Made by a program: the position numbers and the translations under genes
Part shown: one piece after another, positions 2,446 through 34,535 of the stretch
How the letters are laid out: each line of letters opens with the position of its first letter
Numbering within the stretch: position 1 is the first letter of the stretch
Virus record (IMG/VR): IMGVR_UViG_3300025299_000044
Span: 1-35,807 of that record
Origin: a virus
DNA: 35,807 nt
Direction: 5' to 3' (one strand)
Notes under the pieces: model-generated
Databases searched by the model: none
What the model was told of the DNA's origin: nothing
The model's input: the letters and a program-made list of their open reading frames with translations, nothing else

Positions 2446-3413
2446 TTCGTTCCCTTTCCAAAAACGCGGTCGATAACCTCTCGATCCGCATCCCCCTCCA
2501 CATAGGTCTCCATCAGCAACCGGCGTGACTTCCAGCCGCCGTGATCTGCTGTCGTCGCCACGTCCACGCCATTGCGCCGGATCATCTCAGTGGCGAACCC
2601 ATGCCGGCCGATTTCATGGCTGGTGAGGCGCGAGAGACCAGCTTCCTTGATCACCTTGTCGAACCGCTTCTTGACCGTCGATCGATTGGCGGCAGCGAAA
2701 ACCAACGTCTCGTGAAGGCTCCGAATGTTCGCCAGATCGATCACCATGGCACGCGTCAGGAACACCTTGCGCGGCTCCGTCTTCGTCTTCTCCAAGAATG
2801 CTATGCCTAGCTGTAGATCCGTATGCTCCCACGTCAGGCGGCAAGCCTCGGAGACGCGGGTGGCTGTCTCAAACATGAAGCGGGCTATTGCCGCCGTCTC
2901 TGGCATCCCGAGCTTCTTGGCAGCCTTGCAGAAAGCATCCAGCCATACCTTGTTTCCGGCCGGTCGCGCCTTTCGCTCTTCTTTGAACCGCTTGACCGAT
3001 ATCTTCGGCCAGCCCTTGGCGTCGGCTATGTGGTTGATGACAGCCCGAGCCGGGGTTATCACCTGCCGGTTCCATGTCGCGGGCTGAGCGCCAGGATAGA
3101 TCGCCTTCGCTGCCTTGCGGATCTCGGGGCCGGTTATGTCCTTCACCTTCCACTTGCGAAAGTGATTGATCAGCGGCGCTAGAAACCGCCCGTCCTTCCC
3201 GTCGTTCAGGTATTCCGCGACAGCCTCCGGAAAGGTGACTATCGCCTCTTCGCCGTGGACAGCGGCACGACGGACCCGCTCTTCGTGCTTGATCGCGATG
3301 TCTTCCGCGAGCCGCTTGTCAGTCGTCTTAGAAGATGGTCGGTATCGTTTTCCGTCCACCGTGAAATCGTAGTGCCAGATGTCGCTGCCGTTTCGCTTGA
3401 AGAGGTTTGGCAT
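2442..3413 (-). CDS. int: Phage integrase, tyrosine recombinase
   Basis: The 323-residue protein catalyses site-specific integration and, with an excisionase, excision. The N-terminal part (about 1-60) resembles an arm-binding domain (RNGSDIWHYDFTVDGKRYR), the middle is a core-binding helical domain, and the C-terminal half is catalytic. Visible active-site elements are Arg186 (ATRVSEACRLTW), a Lys in the beta-hairpin near 211, the HEIGRHGFATEM box with His266 and Arg270, the HGGW segment at 291-294, and the nucleophile Tyr303 in METYVEGD. The spacing in the H-x-x-x-R box is one residue longer than the common HxxR. It lies next to the interrupted tRNA-Ser, fitting that target. The start region overlaps the upstream HTH gene by 175 bases. 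Confidence 0.95.
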   Translation of the reverse strand: MPNLFKRNGSDIWHYDFTVDGKRYRPSSKTTDKRLAEDIAIKHEERVRRAAVHGEEAIVTFPEAVAEYLNDGKDGRFLAPLINHFRKWKVKDITGPEIRKAAKAIYPGAQPATWNRQVITPARAVINHIADAKGWPKISVKRFKEERKARPAGNKVWLDAFCKAAKKLGMPETAAIARFMFETATRVSEACRLTWEHTDLQLGIAFLEKTKTEPRKVFLTRAMVIDLANIRSLHETLVFAAANRSTVKKRFDKVIKEAGLSRLTSHEIGRHGFATEMIRRNGVDVATTADHGGWKSRRLLMETYVEGDADREVIDRVFGKGTK

Positions 3414-3610
3414 GAAACGGGCTCCGGACGCGCGGCGTTGAGGATTGTGTCAATATCGGATGGCATGAGGAACATGGCTTTGCCGAGAACGCGGCAGGCG
3501 CCTAGAGCCCGTGCGCGTTCCCGCAAGGTCCGCTCAGAGATTTGTATGCCTGCAGCTTGGAGCTTGGCAACAGCCATTGCTGGGGATATAGCTTCGTCGA
3601 GAATCGTCAC
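3239..3610 (-). CDS. Small HTH protein, possible excisionase/regulator
   Basis: The 123-residue frame has a compact N-terminal part (residues 1-65) that reads like a DNA-binding domain: SPAMAVAKLQAAGIQISERTL, a helix-turn-helix-like stretch, then LGACRVLGKAMFLMPSDI, as in helix-turn-helix domains of Xis or plasmid regulators. The second half overlaps the integrase gene in another frame and is Ser/Thr/Arg-rich, as expected for sequence constrained by integrase coding. The start ATG overlaps the stop of the next upstream gene (ATGA). Its place directly ahead of int is where excisionases usually lie. The function is inferred from position and a weak HTH pattern. Confidence 0.6.
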   Translation of the reverse strand: MTILDEAISPAMAVAKLQAAGIQISERTLRERARALGACRVLGKAMFLMPSDIDTILNAARPEPVSCQTSSSETAATSGTTISRWTENDTDHLLRRLTSGSRKTSRSSTKSGSVVPLSTAKRR

Positions 3611-4167
3611 CGGCTCTCCCCCTCTGCTTTTAGGGCGCGGATAGCAGCGGCGATTTTTCCTGCCGCCTCAGAGTGCAGCACCGATGCGGCGGCTGTTTTC
3701 AGCATGCCATCCTTATGCCAAAGTTCCGCGTCTGACGCCCATTCCCTGCTTAGCCTGTCCGCCACATCTGCAGCCTCGTCAATTGCCTTCCGCCTTGCCT
3801 CTTCCGACTGGGTGCGGGTGGAGACGCGCTCTTCGTCAAGCTCTCTAGTTCGGCTCTCCAGTTCTACTTCTGCGGCCTCCGCACGGTCAACGTGTATAGA
3901 CGACACGGCTGCTGTCTTTGCTAATTCTGCGCGGAGCTCTATAATTTCGGTGGCATAGCGCGTTGCGGTAGCTTCTTCTGCCTCTGTGAGCGCCTTTGCC
4001 TCCAGCGCCGCATTGCGGGCGTTGGCTAGCTCGGAGCGTAGGAGGCCAGCAATCTTGAAGCTTGCCGGTCCAGTGCCGTTCACATCGAAATCAGGATCGG
4101 CCCAAAGCTCATCGGCCATGATGCCTTGGATTGCATAGGCGAGGCGGCTGCGTTCGTCGTCGCTCAT
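3607..4167 (-). CDS. Hypothetical coiled-coil protein
   Basis: The 186 residues are mostly predicted helix, with a long Glu/Ala/Arg-rich coiled coil from about residue 45 to 130 (for example AEVELESRTRELDEER). The last 40 residues hold an amphipathic helix ending KIAAAIRALKAEG. The pattern resembles many poorly conserved rhizobial phage proteins. The gene overlaps both neighbours by 4 bases, so it is part of the leftward operon. No enzymatic motif is visible. Confidence 0.7.
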   Translation of the reverse strand: MSDDERSRLAYAIQGIMADELWADPDFDVNGTGPASFKIAGLLRSELANARNAALEAKALTEAEEATATRYATEIIELRAELAKTAAVSSIHVDRAEAAEVELESRTRELDEERVSTRTQSEEARRKAIDEAADVADRLSREWASDAELWHKDGMLKTAAASVLHSEAAGKIAAAIRALKAEGESR

Positions 4168-5872: not shown

Positions 5873-6141
5873 GCTGCACCTGCCTTTGCCTTCGCCATCA
5901 GGCGCTCAAGTGGGGAGAGATGTTGTTCAGGGGCTTTGGAATGGAGTGGCGGCAAGCCGAACTTTTCGAGGTAGGTACGGGAGTGCTTCGCCCAGACCTT
6001 CTTGCCCCAACTCGTAGCGGCGAACTCCCAAGGGCGCGCAGCGCGCAAAGCCTTCTTGCGAGTGGCTAGATCAGCGTCGGCAGGAAGGTTGCGATGCACC
6101 TCGCCAATGACGCTGGATGCGGTTTTCTGCCAGTCGATCAT
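5869..6141 (-). CDS. Hypothetical small protein
   Basis: A 90-residue basic protein, with WEFAATSWGKKVWAKHSR in the middle and a short helical end (SPLERLMAKAKAGAA). The Trp/Lys pattern suggests a small fold that could bind nucleic acid, but I recognise no family. The start ATG overlaps the preceding stop by four bases, keeping it within the same leftward operon. Confidence 0.65.
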   Translation of the reverse strand: MIDWQKTASSVIGEVHRNLPADADLATRKKALRAARPWEFAATSWGKKVWAKHSRTYLEKFGLPPLHSKAPEQHLSPLERLMAKAKAGAA

Positions 6142-6533
6142 GCTGCACCTCCGGAAATTGCGCTGATGCGGCGCAAGAACCAGTCGCGCATGGCGGACTT
6201 GCCTTGGTTGTAGCGTTTGAACTCGGGGCCTTCGCCAATGACTCCCATCATTGCGTCAAGGCTGTCGCCATCGAGCTTCCCGAGGCAGATGCGAAGTTGT
6301 GCTGTCTCTTCGCGGTTGGCTTCAAAAGCGGCTGTAATGCGGTCTGCGAGCGTTGACCAATCCTCGTCTCCGGTCGCCTGAGAATAGGCAAGAAGGAACT
6401 CGTCTGGATTGCGACTCTCCGCTTCCGGGTCACCGTATGCCGCTGGGAATATGCCTTCCCCGGCGGCCCAGTCTGCAAACGCTATACTGCGCTTGATGAG
6501 CAAGACCATTGCGCTGACAGTGGTGTCGGTCAT
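6138..6533 (-). CDS. Hypothetical acidic protein
   Basis: The 131-residue acidic protein is probably mostly helical (for example DRITAAFEANREETAQL and GKLDGDSLDAMMGVIGE). It ends in a basic segment (FKRYNQGKSAMRDWFLRR). No motif is recognised. It sits between the DUF1367/NinB-like gene and small hypotheticals, with ATGA coupling at both ends. Confidence 0.65.
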   Translation of the reverse strand: MTDTTVSAMVLLIKRSIAFADWAAGEGIFPAAYGDPEAESRNPDEFLLAYSQATGDEDWSTLADRITAAFEANREETAQLRICLGKLDGDSLDAMMGVIGEGPEFKRYNQGKSAMRDWFLRRISAISGGAA

Positions 6534-6946
6534 GCTGCCTCCGTCATTTCCGGGGTCACGCCGTAGGTATCTGCAATGAACCGCAGGCCATCGTTCAAAA
6601 ACCGGGAAAACTCCTCCTCAGACATTGAGGAGAACGCGATGCTGCGCGGGATCATCACGGTCAGCTTCCCGACCATGACCGGCGTGGTGTAGCCGCACAT
6701 TAATTTGACCGTCTCGTGCAGAGCCTCGGCGGTCGGGCAGCACTCGGTGCTTTTCACGACCTCATGGAGGAAGGCCCACCAGAACCGCAGCCTGCTCGGC
6801 ACTCTCCCGGTGCGCACGTCTATGCGGACGCGCTCACCTTCCTTGATTTCGGCTATGCGCTCTCTGTCGGCTGCCATCTCGCCAACTAAATTCGAACCAT
6901 ACCTGACGCAATAAATCGAAGGCGATTCTCCGGTTTTCTTCGACAT
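6530..6946 (-). CDS. DUF1367/NinB-like phage recombination-region protein
   Basis: In this 138-residue protein, residues about 40-130 follow the layout seen in phage DUF1367 and NinB-type proteins: an aromatic helix (RLRFWWAFLHEVV), a helix ending LHETVKLMCGY, a beta pair with KLTVMIPRSIAFSSM, and an EEEFSRFLNDGLRFI helix near the end. Such proteins are found in recombination/replication clusters of temperate phages; NinB is linked to recombination with SSB-coated DNA. Here it directly follows the SSB gene, which supports a recombination context. The family assignment is by eye and not firm. Confidence 0.5.
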   Translation of the reverse strand: MSKKTGESPSIYCVRYGSNLVGEMAADRERIAEIKEGERVRIDVRTGRVPSRLRFWWAFLHEVVKSTECCPTAEALHETVKLMCGYTTPVMVGKLTVMIPRSIAFSSMSEEEFSRFLNDGLRFIADTYGVTPEMTEAA

Positions 6947-9911: not shown

Positions 9912-10425
9912 CAAAGCAGCGTTATTGATACAATCGACTTAACACATCACAACAATTGATGGAAGTCGAAAGCTGCCGAGAGGTGCTGAAAAGCGCAAAA
10001 TCTTGGGTCTGCTCGGAGGTTCCCGCCAAGATGATGTGCTTAGAGGTTCAAAGGCAGCGGTTTTTCAAGGGCATTGTCCCGCGCCGCCGATCATTCCGGT
10101 AAATCAATCCCAACGCGGTACTGGCGCCAGTCTCACCAGGCGGAATCGAACGGGGTTGATGGCCCGCCGGATCAACGAGTTTGCAGCTCGCCGGGAAACT
10201 GAAGCAGCTTATACCGAGTGCCGAAGAAAAGGCGCTTGCTCGTATCGGGGATAAATGAGCCTGACCAGCTCGATAAAAAGCCTTCCCCCGGTGTTAGACC
10301 CAGTAGCGGCTGGGAAATCAAACCGAGCTTCAGATTAGGTTGGTTCCACGGATGCTAGGTGCTGGTTAGTCAGCACAAGGTTGGATGTCTCTGTGTTAGA
10401 GACCATCCTAATGCCTAGGTTATAC
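9912..10425. other. Gap without an intact gene
   Basis: No convincing intact gene on either strand. The left 300 bases hold a decayed transposase-like stretch. The right 130 bases hold a cluster of hairpins. The longest plus-strand frame here (10003-10254) is Arg-rich and has no ribosome site of note. Confidence 0.6.
9959..10257 (+). pseudogene. Possible decayed IS transposase OrfA (IS66/IS2-like) remnant
   Basis: No single frame is intact, but pieces from three frames line up in the order expected for the DNA-binding OrfA of IS66/IS2-type elements: a Trp-containing SAKSWVCSEV-like segment, then INPNAVL in one frame continuing as YWRQSHQAE in another. At least three frameshifts and a stop would be needed to break it. 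No terminal inverted repeats are seen. This is a reading by eye of short segments and could be chance. Confidence 0.35.
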
Positions 10426-11405: not shown

Positions 11406-12158
11406 TTAGATCGTAAAGCGGCCGATATAGCGGCCCACGATCTGGATCTCATCGAGATTTAACTCGCGCGTCGTGTGTCGCGGGTTGTCAGAAGAGATCT
11501 GAACCGTAATCCTCTCGTCGCCAGGGCGAGACGTGACCTCAAGCCTCTTCACGACCACACCGCCGAATTCATCAGCCAGCGCATAGATGCCAGGAGGCGA
11601 GGGAACGCGGTGACGGGTATCGACAAATACCACATCCCCATCTTCGATCGTTGGAGTCATGGAATCGCCCCGTGAAGGAAAAGCCGCGACGTGCTGAGGG
11701 CGAACGCCCATGCGGCCTAGCATCCACTCAGGAAGGCGCCAGTGATCGCGGACAGCCTCCTGCGCAAACGAGATGCCATTGCGACTGGACACTTCCAGAG
11801 CCGCAAATCCACCGCCGCCAAGACCGGCAATCAAATCGATCTCTGGGATATCCTTGGCAGTGGTTTCCGGCTTTGAATCTTCATGGCGATCCTCATGGGT
11901 ATCCGGGTCGAATGACGTCAAAAGGGATGCATCGACTTTCGGAGGCCGGTTGAGCATCAGCGCCTCTACGGTCGTCCCAAGGATCGGGGCCATCTTCTCG
12001 GCGCGATCTCTCTTGAGCTGATCATGATCATTAGCAAGCCGGTTGATAGTCGCACGCGAAACATCCAATGCTTCAGCGAGCGCTTCTTGTGAGCCAATTT
12101 TTGATGCTTTGAGAAAAGGATCGAGCCAATTTTTCGACATGACGATTTTATCCGTCAT
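11406..12158 (-). CDS. CI-type phage repressor (HTH plus S24 peptidase)
   Basis: The 250-residue protein keeps the prophage silent. Residues 22-65 form an HTH_XRE-like domain (SQEALAEALDVSRATINRLA). A linker holds the self-cleavage pair Ala111-Gly112 in LIAGLGGGG. The peptidase domain follows, with nucleophile Ser166 in RGDSMTPTIEDGD and base Lys204 in VVVKRLEV. It should bind operators as a dimer and be inactivated by RecA-stimulated self-cleavage after DNA damage. Starts at 12158 or 12140 (MSKNWLD) are both possible; a TTG at 12167 is weaker. It is divergent from the Cro-like gene across a region with a TGCTACAC/GTGTAGCA inverted pair. Confidence 0.92.
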   Translation of the reverse strand: MTDKIVMSKNWLDPFLKASKIGSQEALAEALDVSRATINRLANDHDQLKRDRAEKMAPILGTTVEALMLNRPPKVDASLLTSFDPDTHEDRHEDSKPETTAKDIPEIDLIAGLGGGGFAALEVSSRNGISFAQEAVRDHWRLPEWMLGRMGVRPQHVAAFPSRGDSMTPTIEDGDVVFVDTRHRVPSPPGIYALADEFGGVVVKRLEVTSRPGDERITVQISSDNPRHTTRELNLDEIQIVGRYIGRFTI

Positions 12159-12184
12159 CTCTGGCAAACGATCTATGCCATAAA

Positions 12185-12227
12185 ATGCTACACACCCGTT
12201 GACATTGCGTTAAGAGTGTAGCAATAA
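12185..12227. promoter_or_regulatory. Divergent CI/Cro promoter-operator region
   Basis: The rightward promoter has TTGACA (12199-12204) and an AT-rich -10 near 12222-12228 (CAATAAT), with 17 bases between. The leftward promoter has TTAACG (12208-12213) and TAGCAT (12185-12190) on the minus strand, also with 17 between. A perfect inverted pair, TGCTACAC (12186-12193) and GTGTAGCA (12216-12223), overlaps both -10 boxes, with half-sites 30 bases apart. The position is what is expected of the CI/Cro operator. Confidence 0.65.
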
Positions 12228-12234
12228 TTGCGAC

Positions 12235-12429
12235 ATGACCCTTGAAGATTATATCCACGAGCACACCACTGTAACAGCTTTTGCGGCATTGCTGGGCAAG
12301 AGCCGGGCACAAGTGCACCGGTATATGCGCGGTGAGAATCTCAGCAAGAGCGTCATCGAGGAAATCTGCCGCGCAACTGGCGGGGCAGTGCAGCCGAAGT
12401 CGTTTTTCCAAACAGAGAACGCAGCATGA
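12235..12429 (+). CDS. Cro-like HTH regulator
   Basis: This 64-residue protein is a single helix-turn-helix of the Cro/YdaS type. Residues 10-45 read TTVTAFAALLGKSRAQVHRY followed by a short wing (MRGENLSK) and a capping helix. It would bind the same operators as the CI-type protein and favour lytic growth. The ATG lies about seven bases after the predicted -10 box and no Shine-Dalgarno is present, so the mRNA is probably leaderless. It is the first gene of the rightward transcript. Confidence 0.85.
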   Translation: MTLEDYIHEHTTVTAFAALLGKSRAQVHRYMRGENLSKSVIEEICRATGGAVQPKSFFQTENAA

Positions 12430-15615: not shown

Positions 15616-15872
15616 CACAGAAGCTCCTCGACCTCTTCCGCGCTCCCCACAACATGGACACTGCCCAGATCGCCGCACACCTCGGCGGCGAGGCTGCCGG
15701 ATGGACAGAGGGCCGCGTCTACAACGTCATCAACGCCGAACGCCGAGAAGAACGCGCCGTCCCGGTCACATGGAAAGACGTTGAGCCGAAAGAGCGAAAG
15801 CACGCTCCCACGGCCAAGCTCCGCAAGCTCGTCCCGTTCGCTGGCTATGACGGCAAGGAGGAACGGATCTGA
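15612..15872 (+). CDS. Small winged-helix-like protein
   Basis: The 86-residue protein has an N-terminal segment like a short winged helix: helices KLLDLFRAPHNMDTAQIAAHL and WTEGRVYNVINAE, followed by RREERAVPVTW. A basic tail follows. This may help recognise DNA near the replication genes. It is coupled by ATGA to the methyltransferase and by TGATG to rusA. Confidence 0.6.
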   Translation: MTQKLLDLFRAPHNMDTAQIAAHLGGEAAGWTEGRVYNVINAERREERAVPVTWKDVEPKERKHAPTAKLRKLVPFAGYDGKEERI

Positions 15873-16234
15873 TGACGCGCTTAGAACTTCCCTTTCCCTT
15901 GCCCGTCTCGGCCTGCTTCGAAAACGTCCCAAAGGTCGGCCGTCGCGCCACAGCTCGTTACCGTGAATGGACCAACGAAGCCTTGTGGATGATCCACAGC
16001 CAGAAGCCACAGAAGTTCGCAGGTGAGGTTTCTATCTCCATCGGCCTCGTAGCCCCAGACAAGCGCGCTCGTGACGCTGACAACGCCTTGAAGGGCTGCC
16101 TCGACGTTCTCGTCAAGTCCGGCGTCATCCGTGACGACTCCAACCGGTATGTGCGCCGCCTGACGGTTCAGTGGGTGGCATCTGGCGCTCCCTGTACCGT
16201 GCTCATCTCTGAATATGAGGATCAAGCAGCATGA
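15872..16234 (+). CDS. rusA: RusA-family Holliday junction resolvase
   Basis: The 120-residue protein resolves Holliday junctions formed during phage recombination and before packaging. The family's acidic site is visible as RARDADNALKGCLDVLVKSG (Asp68, Asp70, with Lys74), followed by GVIRDDSNRYVRRL (Asp88/89). The first strand has FPLPVSACFENV. Length matches RusA (about 120). It acts as a homodimer with metal. TGATG coupling to the gene before and ATGA overlap to the gene after place it in the rightward early operon. Confidence 0.93.
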   Translation: MTRLELPFPLPVSACFENVPKVGRRATARYREWTNEALWMIHSQKPQKFAGEVSISIGLVAPDKRARDADNALKGCLDVLVKSGVIRDDSNRYVRRLTVQWVASGAPCTVLISEYEDQAA

Positions 16235-16560
16235 CAACGTTCGCAGAATTCTATCAGCAGTTCCCACGAAAAAAGGCCCGTGGCGATGCCCAGAAGGCTT
16301 GGGATCAGGCCCTGAAGAAGGGCTATAGCGCCGACGAGATCATGGCGGGCCTGATGCGCAACCTTGCTGATCTCCAGCGCCGTGAGCCTCAGTTTGTGCC
16401 GTATCCGGCAACCTGGCTTCGCGCTGAGGGCTTCTTCGACGAGCCCGACCCCATCCGCAGCAACACTGGCAGAAGGACGATAGCCGATGCCGCAAGGGAC
16501 TTCCTCAGCAACGATTATCGCGGCGATGCTTTCGGGGTTCCCAGCATCGGCCGCCATTGA
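16231..16560 (+). CDS. Replication protein, C-terminal loader-like domain
   Basis: The 109-residue protein opens with FAEFYQQFPRKKARGDAQKAW, a motif common in the C-terminal domain of phage replication initiators and helicase loaders. This is followed by ALKKGYSADEIMAGL and the FVPYPATWLRAEGFFDEPD box. In other phages this unit follows a longer N-terminal winged-helix region; here it stands alone. It may recruit the host helicase. No helicase or primase gene is visible in the window. It overlaps the next gene by 74 bases. Confidence 0.7.
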   Translation: MTTFAEFYQQFPRKKARGDAQKAWDQALKKGYSADEIMAGLMRNLADLQRREPQFVPYPATWLRAEGFFDEPDPIRSNTGRRTIADAARDFLSNDYRGDAFGVPSIGRH

Positions 16561-16918
16561 TCCTGACATGGCAATCCGAGCCTACCTCATGGCCGTTGAA
16601 GGCATAGCGCAGGAGGCAATAGCCCGAGCAGCGCGTCTCTTCATCACAGGACAGGTGAAGGACCAGAACCGGGATTTCGCCCCGTCCTGCGCCGCCTTTG
16701 CCGAACAATGCCGGTATCAGCAAGCATCGATCGACGCAGAGCGCCGGCCACGCATCGAGGCCAAGCCCAAGGTCGAAGGCCCGAGAGTGGCTGAATGGAA
16801 GCTGGATCTGCTCAACGCCGCTCTCAAGGGCGACAACAAAGCCCGCGCCAAGCTTCGAACCATGTTCCCTCAAATTGACATCCCAGACGCGCCAGAACCG
16901 CAGGAGGCAGCAGAATGA
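16487..16918 (+). CDS. Hypothetical replication-region protein
   Basis: The ATG at 16487 has an AAGGA Shine-Dalgarno at good spacing, inside the end of the preceding gene in another frame. The 143 residues contain a helical domain with AIRAYLMAVEGIAQEAIARA, GQVKDQNRDFAPSCAAFAEQ (a pattern found in phage proteins that follow replication loaders) and an acidic end. The N-terminal 25 residues lie in the overlap and may be non-essential. It overlaps the GcrA-like gene by four bases (ATGA). Confidence 0.65.
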   Translation: MPQGTSSATIIAAMLSGFPASAAIDPDMAIRAYLMAVEGIAQEAIARAARLFITGQVKDQNRDFAPSCAAFAEQCRYQQASIDAERRPRIEAKPKVEGPRVAEWKLDLLNAALKGDNKARAKLRTMFPQIDIPDAPEPQEAAE

Positions 16919-17613
16919 ACGCCCGCCCAGACATCAACATGAATACAGCCGCCAAGGCGAAGGGCCGGTATTTTAAGCCAAATGTGACGCCGCACGCTGA
17001 TATAGACGTCGAGAAGGCAGCAAAGCTGTGGAGCGAAGGCAAGTCGATGGACCAGATCGCCATGCTTCTCCGCACCAACAAATATTCCGTCCGCACTCTA
17101 ACGTTGAAGAACAGAGATCTTTTCCCAAAGAGGCAAAGAGCGGAATCGGATTGGACGGACGCCAAGATCAAAGAAGCTGCCAGGATGTGGGCGGATGGCA
17201 TGTCGCCAGCAGAGATTGGAAAGAAATTCCATAGCACCAAGGGCGGCATTATCGGGCTTGCATATCGCAATCGCGATCTGTTCCCGGCTCGCGGAACTGG
17301 CCGGAAGACCGCCGAAGGGAAACCGAGACGATCAGTTACGATCATCCCGAAGGCGAAACAGAAGAGGATGGTTGAGCCTGACTTCGGCCCCGCAGAGCCG
17401 CAAATCCCGGCGACGGAATACGACCTCATGCGCCTCCCGCACGCAAAGTCGCTCATCGATCTTGAGCCGTGCGAATGCAAGTGGCCCCTCACATCAGGTG
17501 GTCCCTTCATGTTCTGCGCTGAGACGACGGAAAGTCGCGCATCCTACTGCACCAACCATCTGGAGCGGTCTTTGCCTCGGCCAGAACATCGACGACTGAA
17601 AGCAGCGGCATAA
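16915..17613 (+). CDS. GcrA-like transcription regulator with duplicated HTH
   Basis: The 232-residue protein combines two copies of a GcrA-type HTH with a GcrA-type C-terminal end. Copy 1 is at about 29-73 (DVEKAAKLWSEGKSMDQIAM ... NRDLFPKR). Copy 2 is at about 80-126 (WTDAKIKEAARMWADGMSPA ... NRDLFPAR). The end has CECKWPL (186-192), FMFC and SYCTNH, as in GcrA where this part binds the sigma70 region of RNA polymerase. Cellular GcrA is about 170 residues with one HTH and activates promoters bearing methylated GANTC. The phage form may redirect host polymerase to phage promoters or alter the host cell-cycle program; both are inferred. Confidence 0.8.
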   Translation: MNARPDINMNTAAKAKGRYFKPNVTPHADIDVEKAAKLWSEGKSMDQIAMLLRTNKYSVRTLTLKNRDLFPKRQRAESDWTDAKIKEAARMWADGMSPAEIGKKFHSTKGGIIGLAYRNRDLFPARGTGRKTAEGKPRRSVTIIPKAKQKRMVEPDFGPAEPQIPATEYDLMRLPHAKSLIDLEPCECKWPLTSGGPFMFCAETTESRASYCTNHLERSLPRPEHRRLKAAA

Positions 17614-17628
17614 CGAGGAACAGGCGGC

Positions 17629-18243
17629 ATGAAGATCAAGGCGGCGAAATGGTATGCAATCCGGCTCAAGCCGAGCGCGCAACGTCCAGCGAAACAGGAC
17701 CCGCGCATCACCAACATAGAGTTCTCCCTACGGCAGGAGGGCTTTGAGCATTACATGCCTCTGGAGCGGCGGGAAATAGTGCACCACCGCACAAAGAAGC
17801 CGATCGACAAGCAGTACCCGCTCATCCCAGGCTATGCCTTCGTATGCGAGCCCCACGACTGGCTGAGGCTCGCCAAGTGCGATTTCGTCGCTGGCGTGCT
17901 CGGAGTGAGGGGAACGCCCATTCCTCTGATCCCTACCGTCATCGACGCCGTTCGTGATGCCGAGGCTGTCATCCTCTCCGAATACGAGAGGCAGAAGGCC
18001 ATGCGACGCCAGCGCGAGAAGGAGCAGGCAGACCGTCTACAGCACATCCCGCAGCGGCGCGCCCGCCAGATGTACCCCGCAGGAACGCCGATCGTCATCG
18101 ACCGCACGCACGTACTCCTCGGCGGCATGAAGGGCAGGGTAGTGGACGCAACCGGGCGGCAGACCATCAAGGCAGTGATTGAAACGCTTAACGGCATGGT
18201 GAATGCAGAGCTGTCGTTGGCATTTGTGGAGAAGGTGGCGTGA
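17629..18243 (+). CDS. NusG/RfaH-like antitermination protein
   Basis: The 204-residue protein has an N-terminal NGN-like domain, KWYAIRLKP near residue 7, an unusually basic central strand region, and YPLIPGYAFV near 62, the strand that contacts RNA polymerase in NusG. A charged helical linker (about 120-145) follows, then a C-terminal KOW-like domain (GTPIVIDRTHVLLGGMKGRV). Such paralogs make polymerase read through pauses and terminators. The gene lies directly before an intrinsic terminator (18504-18548) and the late gene cluster, so it may act as a Q-like late antiterminator. Confidence 0.85.
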   Translation: MKIKAAKWYAIRLKPSAQRPAKQDPRITNIEFSLRQEGFEHYMPLERREIVHHRTKKPIDKQYPLIPGYAFVCEPHDWLRLAKCDFVAGVLGVRGTPIPLIPTVIDAVRDAEAVILSEYERQKAMRRQREKEQADRLQHIPQRRARQMYPAGTPIVIDRTHVLLGGMKGRVVDATGRQTIKAVIETLNGMVNAELSLAFVEKVA

Positions 18244-18386
18244 TGTTGGCTATCATTTACGCCATGATCGCTTGCGGCGTGGAGAGCGCCACGGGCAGCT
18301 TTTGGAAAGCGACTATATGGCCGTATCATGTCGGTGTGGTTATAGGAAAGGCTGTGAATGCCCATAAGTGCGCCTTGAAATCATAA
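18243..18386 (+). CDS. Small hydrophobic peptide gene
   Basis: The 47-residue frame starts at an ATG overlapping the stop of the NusG-like gene (TGATG). It begins MLAIIYAMIACGVESATG and contains HVGVVIGKAV, so it may be membrane-associated. No family recognised. It is the last gene before the terminator that closes the early rightward region. Confidence 0.5.
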   Translation: MLAIIYAMIACGVESATGSFWKATIWPYHVGVVIGKAVNAHKCALKS

Positions 18387-18454
18387 CCAAATCAGCATAT
18401 AAATCGCTCAGTGATTTGATGGGTTGTTCTGCTAGCGGATAATCGCCGGACCCA

Positions 18455-18548
18455 CTGGAGAGCTTCACGGCTCCAGCATCAGCAGAAATTTGCCTGAAAC
18501 GCACCCGCCACGCCTCTTAACAATGCGCACCCCGGCGGGTTTTCTTTT
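18455..18548 (+). terminator. Hairpin and intrinsic terminator between early and late genes
   Basis: A hairpin, CTGGAG/CTCCAG (18455-18476), precedes a second stem, CCCGCC (18504-18509) with GGCGGG (18534-18539), followed by TTTTCTTTT at 18540-18548. The second is a good rightward intrinsic terminator. It separates the NusG-like gene cluster from the late operon, so late expression should need read-through or a promoter just after it. Confidence 0.75.
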
Positions 18549-18557
18549 GGGAACGAG

Positions 18558-18743
18558 ATGCCCGACGAAGACGCATTCTCCCCTCTAGAATCCCACTGCT
18601 ATCTCCGAGAAGCAACCTACGACGGCATCCAAGGCTTCGCCCTCATGGACTGCGACGGAGAGATGGAGATATTCGCAGAGAACCGCTCCGACGTGTTCTT
18701 CTACGCAAGGGAGCATGACCTAACCGTGGTGAGGCTGAATTGA
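18558..18743 (+). CDS. Hypothetical acidic protein
   Basis: The 61-residue acidic protein has GGGAACGAG upstream as ribosome site. It contains LREATYDGIQGFALMDCDGE and a C-terminal FFYAREHDLTVVRLN helix-strand. The pattern looks like a small alpha/beta fold, with no named family. It is coupled to the next gene at a TTGA overlap. Confidence 0.6.
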   Translation: MPDEDAFSPLESHCYLREATYDGIQGFALMDCDGEMEIFAENRSDVFFYAREHDLTVVRLN

Positions 18744-18916
18744 CGGTATCAGGACTTTCGTACAGCCTCGGTGCTGCCGCCAAGGAAAAGGCCGAGGGCC
18801 AATTGCGTGACTACATGGATCGCCAGGCTAAGGTCGCCGCCGATCGCGCGAAAATCCGGTCTGAGAAGATGAAAGCAGTGTGGGCAAAGAAGAAGGCCGC
18901 GCAAGCTTCACGATGA
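18740..18916 (+). CDS. Hypothetical basic helical protein (TTG start)
   Basis: The TTG start overlaps the preceding stop (TTGA) and gives 58 residues. It is Lys/Ala-rich and helical (AAAKEKAEGQLRDYMDRQAK then AVWAKKKAAQASR). It could be a small nucleic-acid-binding protein. The stop overlaps the ATG of the lipoprotein frame (ATGA). Family unknown. Confidence 0.55.
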   Translation: MTVSGLSYSLGAAAKEKAEGQLRDYMDRQAKVAADRAKIRSEKMKAVWAKKKAAQASR

Positions 18917-19005
18917 CTAGTAAGTTATTGCTTTTCCTAGCAATTCTTTCCCTCTCCTCATGCCAAGCCCCGCAGATATGCAAACACTGCTGGGTGGCTC
19001 TGTGA
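18913..19005 (+). CDS. Small lipoprotein, 30 residues
   Basis: The product begins MTSKLLLFLAILSLSSCQAP: a basic start, hydrophobic core and lipobox LSSC, so it would be a lipoprotein with a mature part of only 14 residues containing two more Cys (QICKHCW). It starts in an ATGA overlap and ends in a GTGA overlap with the following gene. Rz1-type spanin lipoproteins are also tiny and overlap another gene, but they are usually proline-rich and next to Rz, which is not seen here. Confidence 0.5.
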   Translation: MTSKLLLFLAILSLSSCQAPQICKHCWVAL

Positions 19006-19235: not shown

Positions 19236-19330
19236 AAAACCATTCCGGCAAGTATCGGATTTTACCGCCTTAGTATCCAAGACGGCGGAATATCATTCTA
19301 TCGCACCAACCTTTCCAAAGGAGTGCATCA

Positions 19331-19357
19331 ATGAAAACAACTGGATGGCCGTTTTAA
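19331..19357 (+). CDS. Eight-codon leader ORF before the terminase genes
   Basis: The frame encodes MKTTGWPF and has a perfect AAGGAG ribosome site seven bases before its ATG. Its stop is one base before the ATG of the small terminase gene, which has no good ribosome site of its own. Re-initiation from this leader would explain translation of the terminase gene. Confidence 0.45.
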   Translation: MKTTGWPF

Positions 19358-19358
19358 A

Positions 19359-19649
19359 ATGGCCGGCAATCAAAACAGCGGTCGCAAGCAAGAGAAGCCA
19401 TTCAGGGATGCCCTGAGGATCGAGCTTGCAAAACTGCAAGACGACGATCAGCGCGGCCTTCGCAAGATTGCTCGCTCTCTCATCGAGGCAGCAGAAGAAG
19501 GCAAGATGGACGCCGTTAGGGAAATCGCCGACAGAATGGACGGCAAGGTTGCCCAAGCGATCATCGGCGATGAGGAAAACCCTGTGAACCTCGTCCACGT
19601 CATCAAGCGAGAGATTGTCCGTGCGGGCACTCGCGATACAGACGGCTGA
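19359..19649 (+). CDS. Terminase small subunit-like protein
   Basis: The 96-residue protein starts MAGNQNSGRKQEKPFRDALR, a beginning typical of phage small terminase or DUF5681-type proteins. A helical region with DDQRGLRKIARSLIEAAEEG and VREIADRMDGKVAQAI follows. Its position directly before, and overlapping, the large terminase supports a role in recognising phage DNA for packaging. The length is short for a small terminase, so it may be a minimal form. Confidence 0.7.
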   Translation: MAGNQNSGRKQEKPFRDALRIELAKLQDDDQRGLRKIARSLIEAAEEGKMDAVREIADRMDGKVAQAIIGDEENPVNLVHVIKREIVRAGTRDTDG

Positions 19650-21024
19650 GGTTTTCGAGCCTCTGCTAGAACCGGCCCGCGACAAAGGGGCATGGGGCGG
19701 TCGAGGATCGGGAAAGTCTCACTTCTTCGCTGAGCTGTTGGTTGAGGATGCCTTGCGCTTCCCAGGCGATGCGAACGAAGGGATGCGTGCCATTTGTGGC
19801 CGCGAGATCCAAAAGAGCCTGAAGGACTCGGCCAAGTTCCTCATCGAGAGCAAGCTGAACAAGTTCGGCCTCGGTGAAGCTGAAGGCTTCAAGGTCTTCA
19901 TGGACAAGATCGAAACGCCAGGAGACGGCGTGATTATCTTCCAAGGCCTTCAAGATCACACGACGGATTCAATCAAGTCGTTCGAAGGCTTTCACCGGTT
20001 CTGGGGCGAAGAAGCGCACGGTATCAGTACTCGATCGGTTGGCCTGATCCGCCCGACAATGCGTTGGGAGAGCAAGCGCCTCGGCCTCGCGTCGGAAATG
20101 TGGTGGTCATGGAACCCACTACGCCGCATGGATGCAGTCGATGTCATGCTCCGAGGCGATGGCCTTCCAACTGGCGCTGCTGTCGTTCGGGCGAACTGGT
20201 CGGACAATCCGTGGTTCCCGAAGGTTCTTGAGCAAGAGCGTCTGGACTGCCTCTCAAACACGCCTGATCAATACGACCACATATGGGAAGGCGGATACGC
20301 AACGGTCTTGAGTGGCGCCTATTACGCTCAAGCGCTTCAGATAGCCAAGGCAGAGGGCCGCATCGGTCGCGTAGCCGCTGACCCGCTCATGACCATCCGG
20401 CTCGTCTGCGATATCGGCGGCACTGGCGCACGAGCTGACGCATTCACGATCTGGGCATGCCAATTCATCGGCAAGGAGATCCGGTGGCTCGATTACTACG
20501 AGGCGGTTGGACAGCCGCTGGCATCGCATCTCAACTGGTGCAGGTCAAAAGGCTACACGCCGGACAGGGCGCAATTCTGGCTGCCGCACGATGGCTCGAC
20601 CAACGACAAGGTCTACGACGTTTCCTACGAAAGCGCGCTTCGTGAGGCTGGCTATCGGGTGACGGTCGTTCCCAATCAGGGGAAGGGCGCGGCATCAGCC
20701 CGCATCGAGGCAGCAAGACGGCTGTTCCCGAATATGTGGTTCAACGAGGCAACGACCGAAGGCGGTCGCGGTGCTCTCGGCTGGTATCACGAGAAGAAAG
20801 ACGACGCTCGCGGCATTGGGCTTGGCCCAGAACACGATTGGGCATCACACGGCGCCGACTCCTTCGGGCTTGGCTGTGTCGTCTACGAAGAACCGCATGC
20901 ACCACGAAAGAAAGACCCGAGGCACGCAGGTGCTGGCGGATGGATGGGGGCTATTGCATGGCTATCAATCGGCGTGAGCAGTTTATCGCTGATGCTCTCT
21001 CATCTGCCTCAGATGATTGCATAG
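19621..21024 (+). CDS. terL: Terminase large subunit
   Basis: This packaging ATPase-nuclease has 467 residues from the GTG at 19621, chosen because GAGAG lies seven bases upstream; a TTG at 19615 is poorly spaced. The Walker A motif is GGRGSGKSH (about 26-34). The Walker B-like site is in FHRFWGEEAHG (about 124-134). The nuclease part has LVCDIGGTGARADAFTIW with a catalytic Asp, a HDGSTNDK segment, and a final Asp in HDWASHGADSFG. After the usual end (GGWMGA) the last 20 or so residues become hydrophobic and are read from DNA that also encodes the following HNH gene, so the C-terminus looks altered. Confidence 0.93.
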   Translation: MRALAIQTAEVFEPLLEPARDKGAWGGRGSGKSHFFAELLVEDALRFPGDANEGMRAICGREIQKSLKDSAKFLIESKLNKFGLGEAEGFKVFMDKIETPGDGVIIFQGLQDHTTDSIKSFEGFHRFWGEEAHGISTRSVGLIRPTMRWESKRLGLASEMWWSWNPLRRMDAVDVMLRGDGLPTGAAVVRANWSDNPWFPKVLEQERLDCLSNTPDQYDHIWEGGYATVLSGAYYAQALQIAKAEGRIGRVAADPLMTIRLVCDIGGTGARADAFTIWACQFIGKEIRWLDYYEAVGQPLASHLNWCRSKGYTPDRAQFWLPHDGSTNDKVYDVSYESALREAGYRVTVVPNQGKGAASARIEAARRLFPNMWFNEATTEGGRGALGWYHEKKDDARGIGLGPEHDWASHGADSFGLGCVVYEEPHAPRKKDPRHAGAGGWMGAIAWLSIGVSSLSLMLSHLPQMIA

Positions 21025-34376: not shown

Positions 34377-34535
34377 ATGGAACTGAAGCAAATCAATGAT
34401 TCTGCGCAGCGAAATCAGCCCAAGCCTGGGCAGCAGTTGGTTGCGAACTTTGACACCAAAATCTCTCCTGAGACTGCCGAGGCGCTGCATCAAGTTGATG
34501 CACATATTAGGTTCCCTACCACATTGGGAAAATGA
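34377..34535 (+). CDS. Hypothetical 52-residue protein
   Basis: The ATG at 34377 has AGGAG seven bases upstream, so I reject the longer frame from 34212. The product is polar (MELKQINDSAQRNQPKPGQQ), with an acidic helix (SPETAEALHQVDAHI) at the end. No family recognised. Its stop overlaps the next ATG (ATGA). Confidence 0.6.
   Translation: MELKQINDSAQRNQPKPGQQLVANFDTKISPETAEALHQVDAHIRFPTTLGK

Follow-up and report, generated by a model that had tools for sequence, protein, structure and literature searches.

The virus record analysed here (IMG/VR; 35,807 bases, referred to as the window) encodes a GcrA-like protein in which two helix-turn-helix (HTH) heads precede a sigma-interacting-type domain (SID). 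The common view of GcrA is of a protein that reads a cell-cycle methylation mark with one head. Comparison with related phage proteins shows the two heads as the apparent second and third heads of a three-headed ancestor, and the first head, which seems to have been lost in frame, is the only one with a host-like recognition helix. The gene is the last of the early operon, next to a gene for a NusG-like protein, and we give about an even chance to the reading that its product is a GcrA-family sigma-70 cofactor that recruits host RNA polymerase to phage promoters, probably late ones, with the NusG-like protein as its partner.

Domain structure of the GcrA-like protein

The gene (16,915 to 17,613, plus strand) starts with an ATG that overlaps the stop codon of the preceding gene and encodes 232 amino acids. 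The whole protein scores 62.8 bits against the Pfam GcrA family (PF07750, cut-off 26.9), which places it in the GcrA superfamily, and it belongs to phrog_16311, which it matches over head and SID (E = 1.6e-38, in two stretches). Head A comprises residues 29-73 (16,999 to 17,133) and head B residues 79-126 (17,149 to 17,292). These are followed by a basic linker, placed between the profile matches at residues 127-168 (17,293 to 17,418), and by the SID (17,419 to 17,610), all on the plus strand.

The initial annotation had described two recognisable copies of one HTH unit, each ending in NRDLFPxR, and both statements hold, except that the second copy starts at about residue 79 and not 80. The two heads align by BLASTP over 45 residues without gaps, with 36% identity and 60% positives (E = 7e-12). 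Using an HTH profile that was built without the window protein and without its three-headed relative L002, head A scores 35.1 bits and head B 57.3 bits, while the best of 2000 shuffled versions of head A reaches 7.6. PHROG 16311, an independent family, recognises each head on its own, with E-values of 9.6e-7 for head A and 1.1e-12 for head B.

The C-terminus had been called GcrA-type and Cys-containing, which is confirmed by a score of 29.2 bits for residues 165-232 alone against Pfam GcrA (cut-off 26.9) and by alignment to structures 7ye1 and 5yix. The best PDB matches of the protein are to Caulobacter crescentus GcrA, namely 7ye1 and the domain structures, with 5yix aligning weakly. The conserved cysteine, histidine and CKWP residues of the GcrA SID are all present, in a C-x12-C-x10-C-x2-H arrangement with CKWP, and assign this segment to the SID class. 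GcrA is an activator that binds sigma2 (PMC7403470), and by this likeness the SID of the window protein would be expected to bind sigma region 2.

Head number among relatives

Relatives were gathered by tblastn and pattern scans from isolated Rhizobium phages and many IMG/VR records, and heads were counted in 91 proteins that form 34 clusters at 90% identity. One head is present in 26 clusters, two in six and three in two. The two-headed proteins are those of the window, L060, Microcystis phage Mwe-JY13, Rhizobium phage X2_30, L053 (80% identical to X2_30) and L018. The three-headed proteins are L002 (coordinates 6073-6909), which is 70% identical to the window protein, and L058 (coordinates 3001-3768), which is 46% identical. 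The earlier description of a two-headed phage GcrA is therefore right as to the duplicated HTH joined to a sigma-interacting-type C-terminus, but incomplete, as relatives can have one, two or three heads.

Cellular GcrA was said to have a single HTH, and this agrees with the 27 chromosomal GcrA loci compared from the host family, each of which has one head. A search of 397 genomes of the order with a three-head query detected no multi-headed GcrA, the two weak matches being in short open frames only, so that multi-head arrays seem to be uncommon and carried by phages. The window protein falls outside the cellular GcrA equivalog NF050816 (NCBIfam), against which it scores 47.4 bits for a cut-off of 280, and with two heads it departs from the single N-terminal HTH that is typical of the cellular protein.

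Apparent loss of the first head

A tree of individual heads places head A together with the second heads of L002, L058 and L060 (support 98/99) and head B together with the third head of L002 (96/92). By this grouping, head A is the orthologue of head 2 in L002 and in L058, and head B that of head 3 in L002. The heads are short, and the deeper order of the tree is not resolved for that reason. In a tree of the last head together with the SID, the window protein joins L002 (98/94).

The first 14 codons of the gene (MNARPDIN..., 16,915 to 16,956, plus strand) look like the relic of a lost head 1. By protein alignment, a matching leader occurs in L002 (MNARADID...) and L058 (MNMRPDID...), where head 1 starts as MNARADIDIKKA... 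and MNMRPDIDIEKA..., respectively. The N-terminus of the window protein, MNARPDINMNTAA, is followed directly by the linker that precedes the first full head. At the nucleotide level, blastn aligns 16,900-16,956 of the window with 6058-6114 of L002 (77%, E = 1.8e-5) and 16,999-17,607 with 6301-6906. The spacing of these two matches indicates that L002 carries an additional 144 nucleotides, or 48 codons, in frame. The simplest account of these data is a three-headed ancestor from which head 1 was lost in frame in the window phage. It is less likely that L002 and L058 gained heads independently, given that the relic leader is kept in the window.

Recognition helix and GANTC sites

Across 28 cellular GcrA sequences, conservation of the block RNAVIGK is 90% or more. 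The block sits in helix 2 of the HTH, by position the recognition helix. Head A (KYSVRTL) keeps one of these seven residues and head B (KGGIIGL) two, with the arginine absent in both, so that the block characteristic of cellular GcrA is missing from the window protein. The single heads of other phages keep the arginine and mostly also the asparagine and glycine, with a mean of 3.3 of the seven residues kept and the form RNVIVGL in 56 of 85. In the multi-headed relatives, first heads keep two to six residues and added heads none to two. On a profile of host GcrA, the C. crescentus head scores 104 bits, head 1 of L002 24.7, head B 18.0 and head A 12.7. Loss of RNAVIGK would be expected to alter DNA specificity.

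The window contains 54 GANTC sites where dinucleotide frequencies predict 192, a ratio of 0.28 that is the lowest among the 16 palindromes of the form XYNZW; in the host loci the ratio is 0.56. No GANTC is found in the gap of the immunity switch (12,123-12,234) or in the gaps between the NusG-like gene and the terminase (18,244-18,557, 18,744-18,959 and 19,236-19,358). The only intergenic sites are at 10,143, 10,624 and 10,965, within a poorly annotated stretch, and at 34,398. Pairs of GANTC sites at phage promoters, which the initial annotation had suggested looking for, are therefore absent from the gaps around the switch and the late region. Its suggestion that the heads read methylated GANTC, or compete with host GcrA for such sites, likewise finds no support, as RNAVIGK is lost, the host-like head appears deleted and GANTC is avoided. 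With the block lost from both heads and GANTC scarce and missing from the switch and late gaps, a dependence of the window phage on GANTC and CcrM is unsupported, though not excluded.

These results also bear on a reading in which the protein modulates the host regulon, either by taking the part of cellular GcrA at promoters with m6A-GANTC or by competing with it there, and so pushes the infected cell to replication competence. Phage homologs of GcrA have been described since 2012, and such a role was proposed for gp222 of phiCbK and its kin in phiCbK-like phages, which are also phage-encoded GcrA family members homologous to the cellular protein, with no head array reported (PMC3556154). The Pfam family and the SID that the window protein has in common with cellular GcrA fit this role. 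However, we consider it unlikely for the window phage, because neither head keeps RNAVIGK, both heads score far below the C. crescentus head on the host profile, the host-like head has apparently been deleted, and GANTC is depleted in the window and missing from the gaps around the switch and the late region.

The GcrA-like gene was considered as a cause of GANTC avoidance and rejected: the ratio is 0.12 in the 13 kb tested of RHph_Y25, which lacks the gene, and the two-headed phages X2_30 and L053 show no avoidance. Other related rhizobial phages show the same depletion of GANTC whether or not they carry a GcrA-like gene, X2_30 and L053 being the exceptions. A GANTC about 180 bp past the NusG-like gene in single-head relatives was also rejected as a signal, since in many cases the site is the T-loop of a tRNA-like gene and the density after pooling is unremarkable (2.0 versus 1.6 per kb). 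A tRNA-like sequence (T-loop GGTTCGATTCC) lies directly behind the GcrA-NusG pair in several single-head prophages (L069, L085, L088, L091, L099, L103 and others), about 150-200 bp past the NusG-like gene.

Constraint on the heads and the SID

In the comparison with L002, the SID is the most conserved part of the window protein, with an amino acid identity of 94%, versus 80% for the linker, 67% for head B and 60% for head A. The dN/dS ratios are about 0.07 for the SID, 0.08 for head B, 0.16 for the linker and 0.18 for head A, and values of about 0.2 or less throughout indicate that the gene is under purifying selection. As dS is lower in the SID, the similarity of this domain to that of L002 may be due in part to recombination. 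The combination of a conserved docking domain with faster-changing reader heads fits a protein that may act as an adaptor.

A SID much better conserved than the heads would also be expected if it served to occupy sigma region 2 and displace host GcrA, with the heads holding the complex on phage DNA or acting in repression. Phages commonly sequester the transcription machinery of their hosts, and it is possible that the window SID competes with host GcrA for sigma. Even so, a decoy of this type is improbable, because a pure decoy needs no selection on its heads, which are under purifying selection as well, and would have no need of the additional heads that have arisen in several lineages.

Gene neighbourhood and the GcrA-NusG pair

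From its gene content the window record is a temperate phage. The minus strand carries an integrase (phrog_1) and the CI-like repressor of the immunity switch (11,406 to 12,122; phrog_4 transcriptional repressor, E = 4.7e-29). On the plus strand, the rightward early operon begins with a Cro-like gene (12,235 to 12,429; phrog_35, E = 4.7e-8) and continues with genes for an HNH endonuclease, a C5 DNA methyltransferase, RusA and replication-type functions, the RusA resolvase and replication-type genes being directly upstream of the GcrA-like gene (15,872 to 16,918; PF05866, phrog_34, phrog_270). The next gene, 15 nucleotides past the stop codon of the GcrA-like gene, encodes a NusG/RfaH-like antiterminator (17,629 to 18,243, plus strand; PF02357, 32.8 bits versus a cut-off of 22.2; phrog_25909 transcription antiterminator, E = 2e-25). 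The late genes begin with the large subunit of the terminase (19,615 to 21,024, plus strand; phrog_3717, E = 1.3e-40), followed by portal, scaffold and capsid genes.

The order is thus replication, GcrA-like, NusG-like and terminase, with the GcrA-like gene at the end of the early operon, where a late activator would be placed. The end of the early operon is the place of Q in lambda, and a late function for the GcrA-like gene can be inferred from this position. In those relatives whose loci reach far enough and in which it was recognised, the terminase gene lies 2.0-3.6 kb downstream.

Between the regulators and the terminase, a consensus scan gives a weak promoter-like match, TTGATG-16-GATAAT (18,416 to 18,443, plus strand), as a candidate late promoter. 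It is followed by a weak terminator-like element (18,505 to 18,549, plus strand), an imperfect hairpin, CCCGCC...GGCGGG, with a T-run, TTTTCTTTT, which folds at -15.8 kcal/mol in a 65-nucleotide stretch and is missing from the list given by the scan. No late-promoter motif shared with L002 was found in the noncoding stretch, and no repeated site for the HTH array was found upstream of the late genes. A 61-residue open reading frame in this interval (18,558-18,743) is 94% identical to L002 at the DNA level and matches no PHROG family.

A NusG-like gene adjoins the GcrA-like gene in 20 of the 26 single-head clusters and in two of the six two-head clusters (the window and L060), but at none of the 27 host gcrA loci. 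The pair may couple an initiation cofactor to an elongation factor. The partnership is not obligatory, as neither three-headed relative, L002 or L058, has an adjacent NusG-like gene. The GcrA-like gene is itself replaceable, given that some related rhizobial phages lack it and that one of these, RHph_Y25, has a gene for a LuxR-type regulator in the same position instead (L138, 8976-9179), which suggests that late regulators are exchangeable.

Proposed mechanism

In the proposed cofactor mechanism, the GcrA-like protein would be produced at the end of the early operon, and its C-terminal SID would dock on the housekeeping sigma factor of the host at region 2. The array of heads would bind an extended phage DNA sequence, not GANTC, such that array and SID together bring host RNA polymerase to phage promoters, probably late ones. 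The NusG-like protein would then make the recruited polymerase processive through the long late operon. The capacity of the GcrA family to drive phage structural genes is independently supported by Brevundimonas subvibrioides, in which an entire prophage structural operon of 26 genes, among them those for terminase, portal and tail, depends on GcrA (PMC7987155).

The heads may be regarded as evolutionary modules: most relatives carry a single one, a diverged second and a third have been gained in some, and the host-like first seems to have been deleted in the window phage, which would free it from the GANTC/CcrM code of the host. Taken further, and only tentatively, the constant docking domain, the growing and shrinking HTH array and the NusG-like protein could form a modular sigma-70 adaptor and a two-gene late switch that is independent of the CcrM clock. 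If this were true, heads gained later could come to recognise new DNA sequences, and the ancestral head, the one that reads methylation, could be dropped.

It is very improbable that the array instead organises DNA, in a nucleoid- or replication-related role, by coating repeated phage sequences in the manner of archaeal Cbp1 with a vestigial SID. In favour of this are a weak profile similarity between the arrays and Cbp1 (E = 0.033 with the window protein and 8.5e-4 with L002) and the three HTHs of Cbp1, which arose by duplication and are aligned along an extended site (PMC10883916). Against it, the strongly conserved SID argues for polymerase contact, and no family of repeats that would fit was found in the part of the late-promoter region that was searched.

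Comparison with known systems

C. crescentus GcrA (7YE1, 5YIU, 5YIX) has the same HTH unit, a basic linker and a SID with CKWP...FC...YC..H, and belongs to PF07750, but it has one head rather than two, and the RNAVIGK block is lost in the window protein. The PHROG 16311 proteins of rhizobial temperate phages, such as that of RHph_Y1_10 (QIG68249, annotated as GcrA-like), are of the same family, have the NRxxFP-type head ending and likewise lie between replication genes and the terminase. Unlike the window protein, almost all of them are one-headed, most commonly with RNVIVGL.

Cbp1 and Cbp2 of the Sulfolobales also consist of small HTHs in tandem, three or two in number, which arose by duplication and lie along an extended DNA site; Cbp1, with three HTHs, coats CRISPR repeats (PMC10883916). 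These are archaeal binders of CRISPR repeats that lack a SID, and their profile similarity to the window array is weak. Lambda Q, Xp10 p7 and T4 AsiA/MotA are phage factors that also retarget host RNA polymerase, in the case of Q and p7 with antitermination, and Q is likewise located before the late genes. Their sequences are unrelated to the window protein, and the window phage would differ in splitting the initiation cofactor and the NusG-like factor into two adjacent genes.

The literature searched, which covered few subscription papers, contains no report of a multi-HTH GcrA, of the loss of a host-like head or of a GcrA/NusG pair. The recurrence of the pair suggests a widespread late-gene switch in temperate rhizobial phages that is undescribed in that literature. 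The series of proteins with one, two and three heads offers a natural test of which part sets DNA specificity and which recruits polymerase.

Other head arrangements

Two further proteins of 237 amino acids, L016 and L019 (Chelativorans xinjiangense prophage), have a different-looking HTH-like segment between the GcrA-type HTH and the SID, which suggests another route to a multi-headed GcrA-like protein. In the 193-kb phage RHph_I42, the N-terminus of a hypothetical protein (L054, 1489-2157) matches the GcrA-type head of X2_30 with 44% over 50 residues.
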